Below are positions 7,010 to 61,805 of a stretch of 64,000 bases of DNA, piece after piece (within the stretch, counting starts at the first letter, position 1; the number at the start of each line of letters is the position of its first letter). The stretch is from contig NZ_CP065217.1 in NCBI RefSeq assembly GCF_015767675.1, positions 1,426,001 to 1,490,000 on the forward strand, given 5' to 3'. A model generated the notes under the pieces. That model had not been told where the DNA came from. It saw only the letters and a list, made by a program, of their open reading frames with translations, and searched no databases. This DNA comes from Vibrio navarrensis. Lineage in GTDB: Bacteria > Pseudomonadota > Gammaproteobacteria > Enterobacterales > Vibrionaceae. The translations under genes were made by a program, and so were the position numbers.

Positions 7010-7873
7010 ATGAAAAAGACCGTATTGAGCATAATTATTGTGGTCGCCTTGGGGAGCTTCATTGCGGTCTTTTATCCAACGGCAGAACAAACTGCGGTGC
7101 AAGACATTCGCACCGCTGCTCAAAAGGATACCGAACTCGATATCGCCTCTGGCCGGGCGCTAATGGATTACTCTCTTAGTGCTTTGGGTGAAAAACCGTT
7201 GCATCAGATCCAAAGTGAATTCACCGCGCTTGGCGAAGTGATTCAACCATTGCAAATTGACGAGCGTCTGTTTGCGACCTATTTGCAATATAAGCAAGCA
7301 CTCGTTGAGTTAGAACCCAATTGGAGTACGCTCGATAGTTTTGCCTTTACCGAGTTACACCAATCTTTGTTGGCGCTACAGCAGCGCTTTTTTACCGACG
7401 AGCAAATAGCGCTGCTTTTTGCCGAAGAAAATCAGTTGAGAGCCCTCGCGATAGAGAAAATACGCCTGCAGAGCAGCGCACTCAATCAGCAAGAGCAGCA
7501 GGAGATGTGGCAAGCTCAATTGGCCGATTTACCAGAGTACATTCAGCAAAGTGATGTGAATCGCAGGTTGATTGGTGAACTTAGCCAAACTGAGCAAGAG
7601 GACAGGCAAACGGCCTACTTAAAGCGAGCTGAGTTGGTGGGAGACGCTGGGGCGCAGCGGTTGAGTCAACTCGACGCGCAGCGTCAGCAGTTTGCCAATG
7701 AGTTGCAGAGCTATCTGCTTGCCCGCAGCGATATTCTACAGTCAGACTTTCTTAGCACAGAACAAAAGCAGCAGCAGATTGAGGCGCTGCGAGCTAACCG
7801 CTTTGCTCAAAAGCAGTGGCGACGAGTCGAAGCGTTAGAGCGCATTCAAGATGCATCGCAATCTGTAAACTAA
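7010..7873 (+). CDS. lipB: Lipase-specific foldase (Lif)
   Basis: 287 residues. An N-terminal membrane anchor (residues about 4-24, VLSIIIVVALGSFIAVFY) is followed by a long, mostly alpha-helical, Gln/Glu/Leu-rich periplasmic part typical of lipase foldases (FTDEQIALLFAEENQLRALAI region). The family wraps around the lipase in the periplasm to complete its folding. The position 9 bp behind lipA and the shared operon support the role. Length fits the family (280-340 aa). Confidence 0.88.
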   Translation: MKKTVLSIIIVVALGSFIAVFYPTAEQTAVQDIRTAAQKDTELDIASGRALMDYSLSALGEKPLHQIQSEFTALGEVIQPLQIDERLFATYLQYKQALVELEPNWSTLDSFAFTELHQSLLALQQRFFTDEQIALLFAEENQLRALAIEKIRLQSSALNQQEQQEMWQAQLADLPEYIQQSDVNRRLIGELSQTEQEDRQTAYLKRAELVGDAGAQRLSQLDAQRQQFANELQSYLLARSDILQSDFLSTEQKQQQIEALRANRFAQKQWRRVEALERIQDASQSVN

Positions 7874-7897
7874 AAGAGCAGGGGACACCTGCTCTTT
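7873..7897. terminator. Bidirectional terminator lipB/emrD
   Basis: AAAGAGCAGG / CCTGCTCTTT hairpin with a 5-nt loop, between the converging lipAB operon and emrD; the left arm touches the lipB stop codon. Confidence 0.8.
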
Positions 7898-7902
7898 CTT
7901 GA

Positions 7903-9108
7903 TCAAATCGCCAGCGGCATTTCGTTGGATGAATCAGGTTTACGAAACACCAAACGCAGCCCAAGCATGGCAAGAATGGACATGGCGAGCATCAAGCAGC
8001 CCAGCGGCAGTTGATCTTGTGCTGGAAACAGCGATGCGATGAGCGTTGCAATGCCCGCTCCTAGGTTTTGCATCCCGCCTAATATTGCGCCTCCCGTCCC
8101 TGCGTGATAAGGAAAAGGGGCCAGTGCGCCAGTGGTTGCCGCTGGGAATAAAATGCCCGCGCCAAGAAAGTAGATGGTCGCGCCGCCAACAAGCGTGAGT
8201 GCCGTCGTCTGACCAAACACGCCAGGGATCAAAACGATTGCCGCGCCAAGCAAAATCGCCACCAAACCCACATTGAGTGCACGTTTTTGCGAGCGGCGCT
8301 GAGCGATGTAGCTCGACAGGCCAGCACCGATCAGATAACCGGGAATGGGCAAGACAAACAAAATACTGACGGTCGTGGCTGGTAGATTCAGCACGCCGCC
8401 TAACAGCACGCCTGCCGCGGCTTCAAAGACCGCCACGCCAGCAAAGGTCGCGACTAAACAGAGCAAATAGCCTTGGAAACGTGGGTTGGAAAGCACATAG
8501 CGGTAACTGCGTGCAACGGACTCTACTTTGCGTTTCTCTTTTGGCAATGTCTCCATCATGCTGGTCATCATGGTGATGATGACCGCAATCGCAAACAGGG
8601 CAAGGAAGAGATAACTTGAGCGCCAACTAAAGGTTTCAGTCAAGTAGCCACCCAGCACCGGAGCCAACAAGGGGGAAAAGATCACGCACATGCTAATCAG
8701 GCTGTTGGCGCGGTGCAGCTCTGCTCCTTCAAAGCAATCGCGTGTTAAGGTGCGTGACATCGCTCCGCCACAGCCGATGCCCAAGCCTTGAATAAAGCTA
8801 CCCGCCAAAAACCACTCATACTGCTTGGCAAATAGCGTCACAAGCGTGCCAAGGATATAGATCACCAAGCCGATGATGATGACCGGTTTACGGCCAATTC
8901 GATCAGACAGCGGCCCGTAGAAAAACTGCGATAAGCCATACGGGATAAGATAGCAGGCCATGACCGCCTGCAAAGCGGCTGGTGAAACGAGGAATTCGTC
9001 GGCCATGTAACCAATCGAAGGCACGTACATGGTTTGTGTCATTTGACCGACAGCCGTCAGTATAGCGATTAAAAAGGTAAGTTTGACTAATGGAAATGAC
9101 GCGGACAT
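7903..9108 (-). CDS. emrD: MFS multidrug efflux transporter EmrD
   Basis: 401-residue major facilitator superfamily protein with about 12 predicted membrane segments. The family signature between TM2 and TM3 is visible (YGPLSDRIGRKPVI), and the N-terminal TM1 motif (MTQTMYVPSIGYMADEF) matches the Bcr/CflA-EmrD drug:H+ antiporter branch. EmrD-type pumps export amphipathic drugs and detergents across the inner membrane. It is encoded alone, converging on lipAB. Substrate range cannot be inferred. Confidence 0.87.
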   Translation of the reverse strand: MSASFPLVKLTFLIAILTAVGQMTQTMYVPSIGYMADEFLVSPAALQAVMACYLIPYGLSQFFYGPLSDRIGRKPVIIIGLVIYILGTLVTLFAKQYEWFLAGSFIQGLGIGCGGAMSRTLTRDCFEGAELHRANSLISMCVIFSPLLAPVLGGYLTETFSWRSSYLFLALFAIAVIITMMTSMMETLPKEKRKVESVARSYRYVLSNPRFQGYLLCLVATFAGVAVFEAAAGVLLGGVLNLPATTVSILFVLPIPGYLIGAGLSSYIAQRRSQKRALNVGLVAILLGAAIVLIPGVFGQTTALTLVGGATIYFLGAGILFPAATTGALAPFPYHAGTGGAILGGMQNLGAGIATLIASLFPAQDQLPLGCLMLAMSILAMLGLRLVFRKPDSSNEMPLAI

Positions 9109-36721: not shown

Positions 36722-38610
36722 GTGCGCCGAGCATGGCGTTGATCTAGGAGGTGAAAGTCCTCTACGGGCTCAGTCGAGCGAGAACCGTTAGCCTATGCAA
36801 GGGTGTTCACCGTGAGGTGAAACCTGAAGGAAGCAAACGGCAAAACTTGGTTGTGACGAACAGAAACCTGATAGTAGGCCTGTACAACTTGGGTAACCTA
36901 GCAATAGATAGAATAGCCCAATGCCTCGACGGGAAGTGTGTATAGGTAAATCAGGCATGACCAAGGGAAAGAGCAACGTCTTACCTCGGGAGAGCTCATT
37001 GCCTGTCTCAGATGAGACCAACACAGCAGTGATGTTGTGTGATGGGCAATGAGAAGTCAGCAGAAGGCATAGTACTTTGAGGAAGTACAACTCAAAGGAA
37101 GGCCAGAACTGAATATATCAAGAAGCAGTCACTATTTACTCAATGATGTGGAGTCATAGCAAGATGGAAAACATCTCTACGTCCCAATAGGCAATACCGC
37201 AAGTAAAGCTCATGGTCACGAAGAATGACAAGCATGATCGGCGTAGAAAGGAGGACGAGTCTTGGTGACCCCCACTCCGCTGATGGAACAAATCAGCTCC
37301 TCAGCGAATTTGAACCATGCCCTTCGACGCGTGAAGAAGAACAAGGGGTGCGCAGGTGTCGACAGACTCGACATCACAGCGACCATCTCTAAACTTCGAC
37401 AAGCTTCAAATGGGCAAGCGCTCCGCCAGAGTCTTCTGGACGGAAGCTACCAACCTCAACCAGTTCTGGGTGTAGAAATCCCCAAGCCGAATGGTGGCGT
37501 CAGGCAATTAGGTATCCCTACGGTACTGGATAGGATAGTCCAACAGGCGATCACATCAGTACTGTCAGAGCTCTATGAGCCGACGTTCTCCAACAGCAGC
37601 TACGGGTTCAGGCCGAACCGCAGTGCGCATCATGCGCTTGCGGCAGCAAGCCGCTATATCAGAGAAGGGCGGGGTTATGTAGTGGATATCGATCTAGCCA
37701 AATACTTCGACACGGTGAACCATGATAGGCTGATGCACAGATTATCTAAGGACATTAGTGATAAACGAGTATTAAAGCTCATCAGGTCCTATCTACAGGC
37801 AGGCTTAATGCGAGATGGGTTAGTAGAGCGAAGACAACGAGGAACACCACAGGGTGGGCCATTATCTCCGTTACTTTCCAATATTGTATTAGATGAACTG
37901 GACAAAGAGTTAGAGCGAAGAGGGCATAAGTTCTGTCGATATGCAGATGACTGCCAAATCTACGTTCTTAGTGAGGAAGCCGCCCATCGAGTCAAAGAGT
38001 CGATAACGGAGTTCTTGGAGCAGAAGCTAAAGCTCACGGTAAATCGTGAGAAAAGTGCAGCAACAAGAGTGACGGAGCGAGCTTACCTAAGCCATAGCTT
38101 CAAGATAGACGGAACCCTCCAGATATCAAAATCGGCACAAGCTCAAATGAAGAAGCGAGTGCGGAAAATAACGAAGCGAAATCGAGGTCGAGAGTTGTCG
38201 GTAATCCTCACCGAGTTAACCCAATACCTACGAGGTTGGCAGCACTACTTCAAGCTCGCCATAGGTCAAAGTGCGATGCAGCGCTTAGACGAATGGATAC
38301 GGCGTCGGTTGAGATGCTACCGCCTGAAACAGCGCAAACGCAGATACAGCATAGCGACATGGTTACAACGACAAGGTGTAACAGAGCGAAATGCGTGGAA
38401 GCTGGCGATGTCAGATAAAGGGTGGTGGCGCTTAGCACTCTCGCCCCAGTTGAATCACGCAATGCCAATCAAATGGTTCGAGGAGAGGGGGCTTTACTCA
38501 TTGAGAGATGGGTATGAGTCACTAAAAGTGTATTCGGAACCGCCGTATGCGACCCACGCTTGTACGGTGGTGTGAGAGGACGGAGGCCGTGAGGCCTCCT
38601 CCTACTCGAT
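36722..38610 (+). mobile_element. Group IIC-type intron
   Basis: About 1.89 kb. The 5' boundary is a GTGCG motif right after the ihfA terminator stem; the 5' non-coding part (36,722-37,261, over 500 nt) corresponds to ribozyme domains I-III. The RT/maturase gene occupies domain IV. Domain V is visible as ACCGCCGTAT...GTACGGTGGT (about 38,540-38,572), with CGC in the catalytic triad position as in class C introns, and overlaps the 3' end of the RT gene. Domain VI is the GGAGGCC / GGCCTCC hairpin with a bulged A before the 3' end CTACTCGAT. Exact ends are my estimate. Confidence 0.85.
37262..38575 (+). CDS. ltrA: Group II intron reverse transcriptase/maturase
   Basis: 437 residues from TTG 37262 (or GTG 37265), with AAAGGAGG 7 bp upstream. 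RT domains are complete: YGFRPNRSAHHAL, VDIDLAKYFDTVNH (catalytic Asp), GTPQGGPLSPLLSNIVLDE and YADD (227-230). The maturase X domain follows (LSVILTELTQYLRGWQHYF). No HNH endonuclease domain is present, as usual for class C introns. The last residues (EPPYATHACTVV) are encoded by domain V. It appears functional. Confidence 0.93.
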   Translation: MVTPTPLMEQISSSANLNHALRRVKKNKGCAGVDRLDITATISKLRQASNGQALRQSLLDGSYQPQPVLGVEIPKPNGGVRQLGIPTVLDRIVQQAITSVLSELYEPTFSNSSYGFRPNRSAHHALAAASRYIREGRGYVVDIDLAKYFDTVNHDRLMHRLSKDISDKRVLKLIRSYLQAGLMRDGLVERRQRGTPQGGPLSPLLSNIVLDELDKELERRGHKFCRYADDCQIYVLSEEAAHRVKESITEFLEQKLKLTVNREKSAATRVTERAYLSHSFKIDGTLQISKSAQAQMKKRVRKITKRNRGRELSVILTELTQYLRGWQHYFKLAIGQSAMQRLDEWIRRRLRCYRLKQRKRRYSIATWLQRQGVTERNAWKLAMSDKGWWRLALSPQLNHAMPIKWFEERGLYSLRDGYESLKVYSEPPYATHACTVV

Positions 38611-45626: not shown

Positions 45627-46820
45627 ATGAGCATCACAGACAAGCAACTCAAGGCGATTGAGAAGCTAAGTACTTACGATGGCCCGCCAGAGTTAAACGA
45701 TGGTGAAGGGCTGATCGCTAAAATCTCGCCTAAAGCAAAAATTACATTTCAATATCGTTGCCGATACAACGGCCAGAACAAGCGTCTGCGTATCGGGAAA
45801 TATCCTCAGGTGAGTTTAAAGCAAGCGCGGCAGATTCACAAACGCATGTTGGAGCTGAAAGAAGAGGGCAGAAACCCTGAAATCGCACTAACTGGCGAAA
45901 CGGATTTTGTCACGCTTAAGCAGTGTCTCGACTATTGGTTTGAGAATAAAGTCTCAACACTTAAAGAGGGCACCTACGTTCTTTACGATTCGGTTGCCAA
46001 GAACTATTTTTACCCCGCCTTTCATGATGTCGATGTTGAGCGAATCACAGCCAGAGAATGGATGCTGTGGTTTGACGAGATCGCACGCAAAAATCCCAAA
46101 ACCGCAAACTCCGCATTTTCTAAGATGCGCGCCTGTCTAAATTTCTGTAAATCAAAATTCCTTATCGACAGTACCCACTTTGAAAAAATACGTCAGCAAG
46201 ACGTTGGCGAGTCAGCCACCGATGGCGACCGCGTTCTTACACTACCAGAGTTAGCGAAAATCTGGATCACGCTAGAGCGCAGCAAAGCGGGAACATCTAC
46301 CAAGAACCTGCATTTGATGACAATGTTATGGGGTAACAGGATCTCAGAGCTGCGTTTAGCACGCAGACAGCACTTTGATATGCTCAATGATATTTGGACT
46401 GTCCCACCTGAGCTAAGCAAAATGGGCAATACGATCCGCAGGCCTATTCCGAAACACATTAAACCGATGCTCGAGCGTTTAATGAATATCTACGATGACT
46501 ATCTATTCCCCGGAGCATCGTTGAATAAGCCGATCACCATTTCCGCGGCTAACCGATTTATCCGACGTCAGCGCCAACTGCTTACCTTGCCGCATTGGCG
46601 AACGCATGATTTTAGACGCAGTATTTCGACTATTTGTTCAGCGCTTGGCACCGCTCCGCATGTCACAGAGAAAATGCTAGGGCATGATTTGGGTGGAGTG
46701 CTTGCCATTTATAACAAGCACGATTGGATTAATGAGCAGAAAGAGGCGTATGAGGCGTTTGCAGAGGCGCTGTTCGCGCAAGTGAAGAAGGAACTGGAAA
46801 ATGAGCAGGCGAGCCGTTAG
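45627..46820 (+). CDS. int: Prophage tyrosine integrase (P4-type)
   Basis: 397 residues. N-terminal arm-binding domain of DUF4102/P4 type (ISPKAKITFQYRCRYNGQNKRLRIGKYPQ in pieces), a SAM-like core-binding domain, then the catalytic domain with the first Arg in WGNRISELRLA, HDFRR with the second Arg, LGHDLGG (His) and IYNKHDW (Tyr nucleophile). It appears complete and is probably the integrase that placed the prophage beside sbcB. It points toward the leftward early operon and converges on its last gene. Confidence 0.92.
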   Translation: MSITDKQLKAIEKLSTYDGPPELNDGEGLIAKISPKAKITFQYRCRYNGQNKRLRIGKYPQVSLKQARQIHKRMLELKEEGRNPEIALTGETDFVTLKQCLDYWFENKVSTLKEGTYVLYDSVAKNYFYPAFHDVDVERITAREWMLWFDEIARKNPKTANSAFSKMRACLNFCKSKFLIDSTHFEKIRQQDVGESATDGDRVLTLPELAKIWITLERSKAGTSTKNLHLMTMLWGNRISELRLARRQHFDMLNDIWTVPPELSKMGNTIRRPIPKHIKPMLERLMNIYDDYLFPGASLNKPITISAANRFIRRQRQLLTLPHWRTHDFRRSISTICSALGTAPHVTEKMLGHDLGGVLAIYNKHDWINEQKEAYEAFAEALFAQVKKELENEQASR

Positions 46821-56297: not shown

Positions 56298-56879
56298 ATG
56301 AGACCTGAAACGTTATTGGCTAAGTTCGATTTAAAAGGCATAAATTATCAACCGGAAAAAGGCGGCAAGGGTATTTTTACGTTAGAGGATCAGCTCGCGA
56401 TGGTGGGCATTACTTGGAAGGAGTCACCAGTTGGCTTTCTGGTGCTGTTTGTCGAGCTACTGGACAACGCTCAATCTCGTCGCATGCTGGAGAAAGCAGT
56501 ATTGGCCGAGGTGTACTCACTAACGGGTGATTGGAGAGGGCAAAAGAGCGATCTCGCCTTTGCCGCAATGGTGAACGCAGCCGTGACAGAGGCAATCACA
56601 CCAATGGGGCAGATCTGTTCTTGTTGTGGTGGTAGTGGTAAGTACCTGAGTGCGAACCGTCACTACCGTGATTGTTTGCACTGCCAAGATGGCCGCGTAG
56701 CTTGGAATGTGGAGAGCCGTTTCGCGGCAATGTGTGCTTCTAAGTTTGTTTGTACGTTCTCAGTGTTTAAGCGCAAGTATCACCCTGTACTGGAGCAGCT
56801 GTCTGTGTTCTTGTCTGGTAAGCGTAACGCAGCCATGCTGGCGCTGATGGATAGAATCGAGAGGGAGGAAGCGGCTTAG
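56298..56879 (+). CDS. Q-like antitermination protein
   Basis: 193 residues with a zinc-binding pattern CSCCGGSGKY...CLHCQDGRV (about residues 107-134), as in phage 21/82-type Q antiterminators. It is the last gene before a terminator and the late region, exactly the Q position. It probably lets RNA polymerase read through terminators into lysis, packaging and head genes. Confidence 0.75.
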   Translation: MRPETLLAKFDLKGINYQPEKGGKGIFTLEDQLAMVGITWKESPVGFLVLFVELLDNAQSRRMLEKAVLAEVYSLTGDWRGQKSDLAFAAMVNAAVTEAITPMGQICSCCGGSGKYLSANRHYRDCLHCQDGRVAWNVESRFAAMCASKFVCTFSVFKRKYHPVLEQLSVFLSGKRNAAMLALMDRIEREEAA

Positions 56880-57000
56880 GAAAGTATTAAGTTTAGTAGC
56901 GTGAGTCTCGCTATTGCTAGAATGTGCTTCTACTACAGCAGGCAATGAAGTACTTTTTATAAAACAAATATTGATACCTTTCTTGCTGCTACTAAGACGA

Positions 57001-57027
57001 AAACGCCCCTCGCTGGGCGTTTTTTTG
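57001..57027 (+). terminator. Terminator before the AbiC-like accessory gene (tR'-like)
   Basis: AAACGCCC / GGGCGTTT hairpin with TTTTTTG, between the Q-like gene and the accessory gene. It could be the late-region terminator overcome by Q. Confidence 0.8.
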
Positions 57028-57130: not shown

Positions 57131-58480
57131 ATGAGAACGAGGTTTAGAGATTTCAAATATAAGGGCTTTACAGGAACAGTTGAACGACTAGAAGATGGTA
57201 GTTTTTCTGGAAAAGTTAACGACTTAAATGAAGGATTTTCCTATCTAGCGCCTTCACATTCGGAGTTGGAAGTTCAATTTAAAAATCGCGTTGATTACTT
57301 TTACGAGTTGTGCACGATGCTAGGTGTCGAGCCTGAGATTATTGGAAGGGTGAAGTCTCGCTCATGGCCCTACTTTCTTTTGTTTCTAATTGCAGTTTTC
57401 GTTATGGCAGGTCTTCTGTGGTTTTATGCTCACGAATTCCCATTGAGTGAAGTTGCGAGTCAATCTAACTCTAAGCTTGACTGGTTTGATAAGTCGGGAT
57501 CCTTCTTTAACAATTATTCCGCTCCTCTCTTGTCATTTCTCTCTTTTATGGGGCTGCTGTTTACTATTTACCAACAGAACCGAAGTCATCAATTGTCCTT
57601 GAAAGAATTGGCTTTGACACGGGAAGAGTTAGAGCTGACAAGAAAGGAAATAGAGAAAACAACAATTGCTAATGAAGAGCAAGCCGAAGCACTACGTCAA
57701 CAAGTTGTAGAAGCGCAAAGTGCTGCAGCAGAACAAAAGGCGTTAGCTCAAGAACAGAGGAAAGCGACACAAATTCAGCAGTTTGAAACTAGCTTTTATG
57801 CGTTGCTGGCTGAGCATAATCAAGCATTAACAGAGCTGATAAATGCAGCTAAAGGTAATAATGACGATATAGTGAATATAAGTAGCATTGCTTTTTACTC
57901 GATGCATGACTGCTTAAAAGAAATTCAGGATAATGCTCAGCTTTGTAGATATTTTCGTATGCTTTATCAGATACTTAAGTTTGTTGTGACCAACCATGTA
58001 AGTAACTTAAATCGTGATTTTTCAAACGAATATTTGCAATCCGATGTGTCAGAAGAGGAAAAGCGCTACGCTAGTCTCATTCGAGCAATGTTGCCTCAGA
58101 ACGTTTTGGGCATTTTGGCGGTAAATTGTTGTGCTGGATATGAGCCTGAGCACTCATATCATAAATATTTTCTGGTGTTACAAAGATATTCCTTTTTAGA
58201 GCATTTGAATGTTGATACAGCATTGACTTACAGAGAAATGGATTATCGACACCCAAATGCCATGGCTATCGTTATTCAAAGCTATAGTCCCACAGCTTTT
58301 GGTACCAGCGAGAGTTTGGTAAAGCTGGAAAAGAAGTTTCGGAAATATTTAGAGTATGAAAATCCGGAAAGTGATCATATTATCTTTGTCCTTGGAAAGG
58401 GTAAGAAAGGTAGCGTTTACGAAAAGATGACGAAAATAGAACATGCATGGAATTGTCCATTTTGGGCGGTGCTTAATTAA
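57131..58480 (+). CDS. HicB-like fused to putAbiC-type abortive-infection protein
   Basis: 449 residues. Residues about 6-70 (FKYKGFTGTVERLEDGSF, KVNDLNEGFSYLA, LEVQFKNRVDYFYELC, GVEPE) follow the HicB antitoxin fold, including its YKGYTG-like start and the closing helix. Two membrane helices follow (about 80-100, 128-148), then a long Glu/Gln-rich coiled coil (about 150-216) and a C-terminal domain (FETSFYALLAEHNQAL, YFRMLYQILKF, YASLIRAMLPQNVLGILAVNC in pieces) like the putative AbiC family of phage abortive infection. No DNA-binding or RNase motif was seen. It lies between two terminators with its own upstream region, so it is an independently expressed accessory (moron) gene. The fusion and role are inference. 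Confidence 0.7.
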   Translation: MRTRFRDFKYKGFTGTVERLEDGSFSGKVNDLNEGFSYLAPSHSELEVQFKNRVDYFYELCTMLGVEPEIIGRVKSRSWPYFLLFLIAVFVMAGLLWFYAHEFPLSEVASQSNSKLDWFDKSGSFFNNYSAPLLSFLSFMGLLFTIYQQNRSHQLSLKELALTREELELTRKEIEKTTIANEEQAEALRQQVVEAQSAAAEQKALAQEQRKATQIQQFETSFYALLAEHNQALTELINAAKGNNDDIVNISSIAFYSMHDCLKEIQDNAQLCRYFRMLYQILKFVVTNHVSNLNRDFSNEYLQSDVSEEEKRYASLIRAMLPQNVLGILAVNCCAGYEPEHSYHKYFLVLQRYSFLEHLNVDTALTYREMDYRHPNAMAIVIQSYSPTAFGTSESLVKLEKKFRKYLEYENPESDHIIFVLGKGKKGSVYEKMTKIEHAWNCPFWAVLN

Positions 58481-58550
58481 TTTAATCACTACATCTAGTG
58501 GGTGAGTGTTGACATTCACCCCAATATGGCGCACTATTTCCACGATGCAA

Positions 58551-58576
58551 AACCTCGCCCACTCGGCGGGGTTTTT
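58551..58576 (+). terminator. Terminator of the AbiC-like gene
   Basis: AACCTCGCC / GGCGGGGTT hairpin with a short loop and following T run, about 70 bp behind the gene, separating it from the lysis genes. Confidence 0.75.
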
Positions 58577-58654: not shown

Positions 58655-58945
58655 ATGGTTTCAACGCTTTTGAATTGGTGGCAACAGCTTCAGGAGTGGA
58701 AAGGGCGATTAATAGTTTATCTTGGCGGTGGTGGTATCAGTTTTTTTAGTGAAAGCGTTACGGCTCGTGCGAGAGAGGTTGCGGAAGCAGCTGCTGCTAT
58801 TCCTGACCCGGTTGTTTTTAATCCATACACCACGGCTGGGCTAGTTTTTGTTGGTGGTCGCTTGGTCTTCGATATTTTTGTGTATCTCGACCAGCGTCGC
58901 ATGAAGAAACGGAGAGAACGAGATGGACGCAAAGCAACTGACTGA
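58655..58945 (+). CDS. Holin-like membrane protein
   Basis: 96 residues with one to two hydrophobic segments (GRLIVYLGGGGISFF and FNPYTTAGLVFVGGRLVFDIFVYLD) and a highly basic C-terminus (QRRMKKRRERDGRK), typical of phage holins. It overlaps the endolysin start by 23 bp. The role rests on topology and position in the lysis cassette. Confidence 0.65.
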   Translation: MVSTLLNWWQQLQEWKGRLIVYLGGGGISFFSESVTARAREVAEAAAAIPDPVVFNPYTTAGLVFVGGRLVFDIFVYLDQRRMKKRRERDGRKATD

Positions 58946-59411
58946 GTTTGTCGTAAGGCCTGAACTTAAGCGTCTTGGCCTTTGGAGTGAAGCAGCAGAG
59001 CAACTGGTTATCGGCACTATTTTTACTGAGAGCCGAGGCAAGTATCTCAAGCAGCATGGGAATGGGCCAGCGCTTGGCATTATCCAAATGGAACCTGCCA
59101 CGCACGATGATATCTGGTTAAATTTTCTGAAGTACAAACTACGTCTTGCAGCGAAAGTTCTAGATTCAATAGGTAATGACTTTTTCTTGGACAGGGCGAA
59201 TCCGCCAGTTGATGCAACTGAACTTATCGCAAACCTGCGTTACGCCGTGGCGATGTGTCGAGTGCATTATCTTCGTGTTCCTGAGGCTTTGCCGCCTGCA
59301 GGTGATATTCCTGCGTTGGCTCGGTATTGGAAGAAGCATTACAACACGCATTTGGGTGCTGGTGCTGTTTCTGATTTTGTCGATAAATTCCCGAAAGGGA
59401 TTATTCACTAA
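58923..59411 (+). CDS. Endolysin, lytic transglycosylase-like
   Basis: 162 residues with a lysozyme-like SLT core: IGTIFTESRGKYL (probable catalytic Glu) and GPALGIIQMEPATHDDIW, followed by YAVAMCRVHYLRV. It would cleave peptidoglycan at host lysis. No signal peptide, so it needs the holin. It overlaps the holin gene and is followed by a terminator. Confidence 0.82.
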   Translation: MDAKQLTEFVVRPELKRLGLWSEAAEQLVIGTIFTESRGKYLKQHGNGPALGIIQMEPATHDDIWLNFLKYKLRLAAKVLDSIGNDFFLDRANPPVDATELIANLRYAVAMCRVHYLRVPEALPPAGDIPALARYWKKHYNTHLGAGAVSDFVDKFPKGIIH

Positions 59412-60112: not shown

Positions 60113-60575
60113 CTTGGCTTGATGTGGTCGAGTGCTACTGACTGCACTTGTTATCCGTTAAGTCAGGTTGTGAACGCAGCTTATCTCGCAACTGCCCAGA
60201 TTAAAGGGAGAGAGTAGCTTTGGACTAGCGATCCATTAGTGCATCAGTAGCTGTAAAGATGAAAAAGGCTGCTTGCTGCCTCAAAGCAAGCAAAACTCTC
60301 ACCGCCAAGAGCAAAAAGTGCATTCATGATTAGGCGTAAGCCATTGTCTCAAGTGCTTACGGCGGTGACCCTATTAAATGCGCGTCAGCACCTCGCTGTT
60401 TTAGAACGTTAGCTGTGACCACGAAGCATTAACCATGCTTACTCCTTACGTGTAAGCGCGATCTGAAAATCAAAAAGGTGTTAGCCAAGGTTGAAAATCC
60501 TACATTAACGGCAACGTCAGCCAGAGGCGAAAAAGCGGCGTGACACTGGAGAGACAGGCTAAGCGGTTTATATCT
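60113..60575. other. Structured non-coding region before the second integrase
   Basis: About 460 bp without a credible gene. It has several inverted repeats: GCTTGC/GCAAGC near 60,271-60,292, and a nested pair in which TCACCGCC (60299-60306) and GTAAGC (60336-60341) can pair with the continuous GCTTACGGCGGTGA (60355-60368). It may hold att or control sites of the recombinase gene or an RNA; none could be proved. Confidence 0.4.
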
Positions 60576-61805
60576 ATGAAGACAGTAAGATTACGTATTT
60601 CAGATGCGAAAATTAAAGAGTACTTGAAGAGTGATACTGTCACGAGGCTTAGGGATGAGAGGTATGCTCTTGAGCTGCGTTTTCATAAGTCTCGTGAGAG
60701 TGCTACTTGGTGGCTGATAGACAAACGGAAAAACAACGGCAAGCTTGGAAAGCCTAAATGGGAACGTTTGGGCCTTTGGCCTCGTTTGAGTGCCAAATCG
60801 TTGTTTGAGCTGTTGCCCCAAAAAATAGCGAGAATGGCGACAGAAACCGACCAGATTGTGACTGACTGGACGTGTTTCGGGGATTGTTTGCGCTGGTATG
60901 TTGAGCATATTGATTCAAACAAAGACATTTCTGCAGAACGGAAAAGCGCGGTGCGCTCGGTTGTGTTTAACCACTTGATTCCCGCCCTGAATGATTTGCC
61001 GTTAACCCATGTTCGTAAGCATCACATTAAAGATGCATTGATCTGGCCATTACGAGAGCGCTATGAACTTAGAACGGTTAAGGGCTATTTTGCCATTCTG
61101 AAAGCGGCGTTTAATCAGGCGTATCGAGAAGAGCATATTGCTGCTAACCCTATGGCTGGAATGGTGTTTAGCGATTTCATCAAAAAGAAAATCACGCCCA
61201 ATGAGGGCAAGATTCAGTCTGATGATGTGCGTGAATTGCTTGAGCGTTTAAAAGACGACATGCAGCAAAAGCAGGTGTTTATTTTGATGCAGTTGGCCCA
61301 CGGCACGCGCATTCGTGAAACACGGTTGGCACGTTGGAGCCATATTGATTGGGATGAGGGCATTTGGCGAATTCCGGCTTGTAACGCTAAGAACGGTGAG
61401 GCTTTGGTATTGCCATTGACTTGGCAGGTGAGAAATCTGCTAATTCGTTATCGTGCCACTCAATCCGAAAAGCAAAAGTTTATTTTCCCGAACTCGAAAG
61501 GGGATGCGCCTATTTGTAAAGATACCGCCAATGATATCTATGCAGAGTTCAGTGCAGGCGCATTTACTAGCCACCATTGCCGTAAGCTGGTCGGGACACG
61601 ATTAACCGATCTTGGTGTTGATAAGTTTGTGCGTGAACGAATACTCAATCACAAGATGTCAGATTTAGACCAAGCGTACATACATACGACGACAGAAGCC
61701 TTAAAACTCAAGGCCTTGCAGACCTATCACAACTGGTTAGATCTGCAGGGCTTTATTTTTTTTCATGGGAAGACAGAGGGAAGATCTGAAAACATGATCA
61801 TTTAG
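60576..61805 (+). CDS. Second tyrosine recombinase in the late region
   Basis: 409 residues from the ATG at 60576 (MKTVRLRISDAKIKEYL); an upstream frame to 60540 is open. The catalytic residues are in place: Arg in HGTRIRETRLARW, HHCRK (His, Arg), LNHKMSD (His) and QAYIHT (Tyr). It is unlike the integrase at 45,627 in sequence. A complete recombinase between the lysis and packaging genes is unusual; it may be a nested mobile element, a satellite remnant or a second phage recombinase. Confidence 0.85.
   Translation: MKTVRLRISDAKIKEYLKSDTVTRLRDERYALELRFHKSRESATWWLIDKRKNNGKLGKPKWERLGLWPRLSAKSLFELLPQKIARMATETDQIVTDWTCFGDCLRWYVEHIDSNKDISAERKSAVRSVVFNHLIPALNDLPLTHVRKHHIKDALIWPLRERYELRTVKGYFAILKAAFNQAYREEHIAANPMAGMVFSDFIKKKITPNEGKIQSDDVRELLERLKDDMQQKQVFILMQLAHGTRIRETRLARWSHIDWDEGIWRIPACNAKNGEALVLPLTWQVRNLLIRYRATQSEKQKFIFPNSKGDAPICKDTANDIYAEFSAGAFTSHHCRKLVGTRLTDLGVDKFVRERILNHKMSDLDQAYIHTTTEALKLKALQTYHNWLDLQGFIFFHGKTEGRSENMII

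Follow-up and report, generated by a model that had tools for sequence, protein, structure and literature searches.

A HicB-like antitoxin domain without HicA, joined to membrane helices and a putAbiC domain, behind the Q-type antiterminator of a Vibrio prophage

Introduction

HicA and HicB were reported to form a strictly unique pair, some domain fusions aside (Makarova 2009; available part of PMC2701414). What, then, is a HicB-like domain doing at the start of a prophage protein that has no HicA gene beside it and continues into membrane helices, a coiled coil, and a putAbiC domain? The gene is part of a window (the whole stretch of DNA that was analyzed) of 64,000 nucleotides from Vibrio navarrensis, positions 1,426,001 to 1,490,000 of contig NZ_CP065217.1 (assembly GCF_015767675.1). 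The openly licensed PMC literature yielded no paper that treats putAbiC or PF16872 by name or accession, and the name putAbiC itself says "putative"; in the same literature, no title or abstract describes the HicB-membrane-putAbiC layout. Nor is the layout among the 14 HicA classes of PMC10865869, as far as the accessible part of that survey goes; the survey starts from HicA and is thus blind to HicB without HicA.

Results

Architecture of the fused protein

The gene encodes a single intact protein, whose parts are listed in Table 1 together with the neighboring features. PF16872 scores 41.6 bits, above the Pfam gathering cutoff of 22, and was found in 20 of 20 relatives at E ≤0.1 (best, 1.9e-12). 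As in bare members of the family, membrane helices and a coiled coil precede the putAbiC domain; the second helix is weak by hydropathy. After residue 75, these parts take the place of the ribbon-helix-helix DNA-binding part of HicB, and Pfam-type and PHROG family scans found no DNA-binding family in the 449-aa protein. The AlphaFold2 model, built from 22 sequences (mean pLDDT, 81; pTM, 0.55), is usable for single domains but not for their placement relative to each other. No PADLOC model fits the protein; the best was PtuB1 (E 6e-4), over the coiled coil.

Table 1. Features of the fused gene and its prophage surroundings (window coordinates)
Feature	Position	Strand	Basis
Group II intron reverse transcriptase/maturase	37262..38575	+	PF00078 and PF08388
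Regular integrase	45627..46820		
Q-type antiterminator; upstream border of cargo slot	56298..56879	+	phrog_127, E 9.7e-22
Terminator-like hairpin between Q and fused gene	56999..57024	+	Consensus scan only
Fused gene, 449 aa: HicB-like domain, membrane helices, coiled coil, putAbiC	57131..58480	+	Open reading frame, translation
HicB-like N-terminal domain, residues 8-69	57152..57337	+	phrog_9151; hhalign with free HicBs; model and fold match
First transmembrane helix (strong), residues 79-102	57365..57436	+	Helix in model; hydropathy
Probable second transmembrane helix (weaker), residues ~128-148	57512..57574	+	Hydropathy ≤1.47; start of long helix 114-242 in model
Coiled coil, residues 151-215; best conserved part	57581..57775	+	Model; pairwise identity
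putAbiC domain (PF16872), residues 269-360; helical bundle	57935..58210	+	Pfam match; 20/20 members of alignment A2
Variable C-terminal tail, residues 361-449	58211..58477	+	Pairwise identity
Terminator-like hairpin behind fused gene	58549..58575	+	Consensus scan only
Two overlapping genes at lysis position; downstream border of slot	58655..59411	+	PHROG families without function; lysis by position
Second tyrosine recombinase	60540..61805	+	PF00589, E 5.8e-18

Two resemblances within the C-terminal part and the hinge were set aside. Reading RYSFLEH (residues 352 to 358) as a HEPN nuclease motif is unsupported: by eye, its R varies among bare members, which have K, E, I, V, or other residues there. 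Residues 73 to 137 matched a ~660-aa protein in about 100 Vibrio genomes (E ~1e-4), which we took as an effect of membrane-helix composition; the one such frame that we read through (L036) resembles CcmF by eye, and the tally of 121 of 227 genomes obtained from matches of this type does not amount to 121 carriers.

Identity of the N-terminal domain

The sequence-only reading had called the first ~65 residues HicB-like and the rest two transmembrane helices, a coiled coil, and an AbiC-like domain; the latter layout stands, with the second helix the weaker, and comparison by profile and by structure bears out the former. The N-terminus matched phrog_9151, a phage HicB family, in 20 of 20 alignment members; 13 fused N-termini aligned to 18 free HicBs with an hhalign probability of 98.8; and the top fold match of the modeled N-terminus was 6g1c, with caveats. 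The fused protein thus begins with a HicB-type (partial RNase H) domain. When we searched 369 genomes of the class with the fused-domain profile, all 39 places that it found outside the window lay in short, HicB-sized frames of 84 to 169 aa (one with a stop). We reject chance resemblance because of the profile-profile comparison and this survey taken together. Homology with free HicBs spans ~65 residues, and the positions common to both (Y10, K11, G27, L46, F50, C61, and P68) are of the fold type.

Searches of the PDB were less telling. The fused profile retrieved no HicB entries from its sequences, and true HicBs used as queries likewise retrieved none, so this test is without power. A GH19 chitinase matched residues 23 to 69 (phmmer E 3.7e-5), which we regard as chance because a 13-row profile gives only E 1.5.

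How the fused domains differ from free HicBs was sensitive to how the latter were collected. A sharp loss of the motif IxDLVTYE from fused domains is weakened as a finding, and the count behind it overstated, because the 34 viral HicBs used in that comparison had been found with a pattern built on the motif itself. Among 34 free HicBs found instead via the fused profile, with no motif search, position 35 is L, V, or I in 25 and position 36 is I, V, or A in 33, and D34, T37, and E39 are kept in only 18, 14, and 14, respectively. In the 13 fused domains, position 35 is never hydrophobic and position 36 is so in two, one of which is the window protein. Thus, of the motif positions, only the pair 35-36, which precedes Y38 and is polar in most fused domains, clearly separates free from fused HicBs.

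HicA accompanies free HicBs and is missing beside fused genes

A HicA-like match lies near 31 of the 34 free HicBs in viral loci and near 30 of 34 in genome loci (E 0.05). By contrast, the nine stretches with fused or related genes held none at E 0.01, and PF07927 (HicA) found nothing in the window's genome at E 1e-3; no hicA adjoins the fused genes, which for the window gene had already been noted from the DNA letters. Judged on sequence, the N-terminus is a true HicB antitoxin domain that has been separated both from HicA and from the DNA-binding part of HicB. Having no partner toxin nearby suggests that the antitoxin part has been reused, perhaps for recognizing an infecting phage. Solo HicBs were also seen elsewhere: in L133 and L134, viral contigs of >344 kb, a short HicB-like frame has no HicA-like match in 3.2 kb, which places such solo HicBs in large phages.

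Might the domain still bind a HicA of the host or of a rival element, neutralizing it or using it as a trigger? Its homology with HicA-neutralizing domains is clear, and hicAB pairs are present in the genus (L048 and L050) and in phages; however, the pair 35-36 has turned polar in most fused domains (the window protein is an exception at position 36). We consider a role as a HicA sponge very unlikely. With the motif loss weakened as a finding, binding of an ordinary HicA by the fused domains is uncertain.

Exchange of modules between alleles

Mean pairwise identity among 17 relatives (P0001 to P0017) is 60% in the HicB-like domain, 69% in the membrane part, 83% in the coiled coil, 61% in the core, and 29% in the tail. 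Single pairs show switches: P0008 and P0010 have identical HicB-like domains (100%) with cores at 50% and tails at 38%, and, conversely, P0004 and P0009 share only 50% of the HicB-like domain and 100% of core and tail. The pairs P0007/P0013 and P0011/P0016 behave in much the same way, and a sliding-window comparison puts the changeover within the conserved hinge, at residues ~76 to 215. Across 16 relatives (P0001 to P0016), identity of domain 1-72 is uncorrelated with that of core 216-360 (r −0.07; permutation p 0.72), whereas core and tail are correlated (r 0.70; p 2e-4). Our interpretation is that recombination within the hinge swaps the N-terminal module.

Such shuffling bears on two other accounts of the domain. 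The HicB-like domain could be an intramolecular antitoxin that caps the C-terminal half and leaves it inactive until infection releases it, an option that the sequence-only reading had offered. HicB is known to mask its partner's active site (available part of PMC11594946), and CapRel is a fused toxin-antitoxin with a domain of this kind (PMC9712102, as excerpted). A cap seated on variable surfaces should coevolve with them, however, and here the N-terminal module is combined freely with differing C-terminal modules; this speaks against a tight cap matched to the C-terminal half of the same protein and for an independent partner. The cap has accordingly lost support, and we think it unlikely, the version that remains being one on conserved surfaces. 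In the second account, the domain does no more than bring copies of the membrane protein together in higher-order units, while the C-terminal tail does the sensing. HicB dimers of one species do form tetramers via their N-terminal domains (PMC11594946, in the portion available), and the tail is the most variable part; yet the HicB-like domain itself varies widely and is exchanged as a unit, which is more than a plain scaffold needs, and this account too seems improbable to us. For the independent recognition module that we prefer, the tail may nevertheless carry specificity too, since the tail rather than the HicB-like domain is the most variable part.

Relatives and bare putAbiC members

The bare putAbiC proteins compared do not share this N-terminus. 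By eye, the 16 bare putAbiC proteins in the tree (six from the same genus) start close to the first membrane helix and none has a 70-residue HicB-like domain; phrog_9151 matched none of the five bare proteins scanned. By these alignments the HicB part is an add-on and not an ordinary part of the family, so the finding that could have undone the proposed fusion did not appear. Where the source names the organism, recognizable fused proteins come only from Vibrio and Aliivibrio. The AU test does not reject a single origin for the fused proteins (p-AU 0.43); the free tree needs two changes and has long branches.

Searches farther afield returned little. Viral contigs gave no relatives with P0001 alone and three with alignment A2; tblastn of 50,697 phage records gave no match; and the plasmid search gave two records with partial matches outside the HicB part. 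Looking for other proteins that share region 1-76 returned only P0001 and P0002 among nine candidates, which is little informative. The diverged relatives P0023 and P0024 have N-termini that compare with HicB at hhalign probabilities of only 16 and 1 to 4%, too low to identify them as HicB. In L019/L051, the frame of a P0024-related copy ends early and the matches continue in another frame. About 4 kb from P0023 lies an Avs3a match of 1,108 bits (L045, 33-5498, + strand), with two large frames between them that have no PADLOC match.

The Q-lysis slot of the prophage

The fused gene begins 250 bases behind the Q-type antiterminator, and no promoter-like site was found just upstream of it on the + strand; it could be under late (Q) control and not expressed in the lysogen. 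The order Q, fused gene, lysis-position genes recurs in IMG/VR prophages L053 and L055. L054 and the genome contig L047 begin inside the fused gene, and lysis- or terminase-type genes then follow. The lysis-position genes of the window are assigned by place; an endolysin is recognized in L084 at a place like theirs.

We compared this slot across 19 stretches beside Q homologues in other Vibrio genomes. Lysis or terminase markers lie downstream in eight of them (L083, L084, L085, L092, L093, L097, L099, and L101). In six others (L086 to L091), neither a lysis nor a terminase marker lies behind Q, and among those listed the genes after Q are of the tail type. Where both borders are seen, the slot holds AriA/AriB (L084), KwaB (L093, with terminase as the far border), an AbiLi-like ATPase (L099), or an NsnB-like ATPase (L101); in L083 it holds two small frames only. 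PtuA/PtuB also lie behind Q in L094, where the contig ends, and in L098, which has no marker within 10 kb and carries GajA as well; in neither is the far border reached. We take PtuA/PtuB, GajA, and KwaB to be components of Septu, Gabija, and Kiwa, respectively. The name PARIS, for AriA/AriB, appears in PMC9122126 (available part). Thus, the same site holds different known defense genes in related elements (L084, L093, L099, and L101), with the proviso that the proteins given to PADLOC were chosen by eye from six of the 19 stretches and from L053, so that slot content is not an unbiased count. The proposal that the gene occupies a defense-type site in a prophage fares well here, given that the Q-lysis slot of related prophages holds defense-like genes.

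Several other features of these elements deserve mention. In lambda-like prophages of Vibrio, the stretch from Q to the lysis genes looks like a hotspot for defense cargo, and one other than the cI-integrase hotspot already published. Behind the Q of L098, PtuA/PtuB, GajA, and a frame that by eye is HipA-like are stacked together. In L053, the space between Q and the fused gene contains a KAP-type NTPase that matches PADLOC candidate PDC-S20 (7110-8471, − strand; E 1.3e-106). Between the lysis-position genes of the window and its terminase small subunit sits the second tyrosine recombinase, well away from the regular integrase; L053, L054, and L055 carry the same gene there too (in L055, split into two frames). 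The window also encodes a group II intron maturase (Table 1).

The slot also allows for some other role, for example in the timing of lysis, in the fitness of the lysogen, or in exclusion through an altered surface: the gene adjoins lysis-type genes and, being behind Q, would be expected to be expressed late. Against such roles, relatives occur outside prophage-like surroundings (L044 to L046), one of them beside the Avs3a match, and other residents of the slot match defense models; we regard this account as highly doubtful.

Discussion

Proposed function

With roughly even confidence, we propose that the gene encodes a prophage-borne, membrane-acting anti-phage protein, in which an exchangeable HicB-derived recognition module signals via the hinge to a C-terminal effector. 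We infer a protective role for the lysogen because of the position of the gene and its kin. In the lysogen, the protein would be anchored in the inner membrane, and its two ends would face the cytoplasm. Its HicB-derived domain would recognize a protein made when a rival phage infects, and engagement would be passed through the conserved membrane and coiled-coil hinge to the C-terminal helical module; this module might then damage or depolarize the membrane, and infection would be stopped by death or arrest of the cell. Sensing of a phage component by the HicB-like domain, the other option of the sequence-only reading, would fit. We advance only tentatively, as a broader and rather doubtful idea, that a HicB fold released from its tie to HicA now serves a membrane-acting phage-defense protein as an interchangeable domain for recognizing pathogens; natural alleles would join differing HicB-derived modules to differing C-terminal modules across the conserved hinge, such that antitoxin domains would form a receptor repertoire.

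If true, this would mean that antitoxin domains can turn into recognition parts of unrelated effectors. Natural allele pairs could test which half sets specificity, offering a route to the triggers and actions of putAbiC proteins, and further defense genes may be sought between Q and the lysis genes in lambda-like prophages of Vibrio.

Comparison with known systems

The closest homologues of the N-terminal domain are HicB antitoxins with a ribbon-helix-helix domain (PF05534/phrog_9151; class 4 in the available part of PMC10865869). Unlike these, the fused protein has no HicA beside it and no DNA-binding domain, and has membrane helices, a coiled coil, and putAbiC instead. With bare putAbiC proteins (PF16872) it has in common the membrane helices, a coiled coil with the motif ELxLTRxE, and the helical putAbiC domain; only the fused proteins, however, add the HicB-like domain.

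Interchangeable defense cargo at a fixed position is also known from prophage hotspots, including the cI-integrase site of P2-like elements of Vibrionaceae (PMC9122126, as excerpted), whereas here the position is between Q and the lysis genes of lambda-like Vibrio prophages. Staphylococcus aureus prophages must silence their own defense upon induction (available portion of PMC11087260); together with the location of the gene behind Q, this makes the timing of its expression worth asking about.

PdpSau of S. aureus prophages is likewise an accessory membrane-protein gene beside the lysis module, and it brings about abortive infection in which the membrane potential is lost (PMC10127798, in the part available). 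As that part describes it, PdpSau has a single membrane helix, at the N-terminus, together with an OB-like part and no HicB domain; the likeness drawn here is one of place and kind. CapRel, likewise one protein, senses a phage protein through its antitoxin-type domain, but its effector is soluble and modifies tRNA, its antitoxin part lies at the C-terminus and bears no relation to HicB, and its cap is intramolecular (available part of PMC9712102). By analogy, PdpSau would be the closest tested parallel to the fused protein in place and kind, and CapRel the closest in logic.
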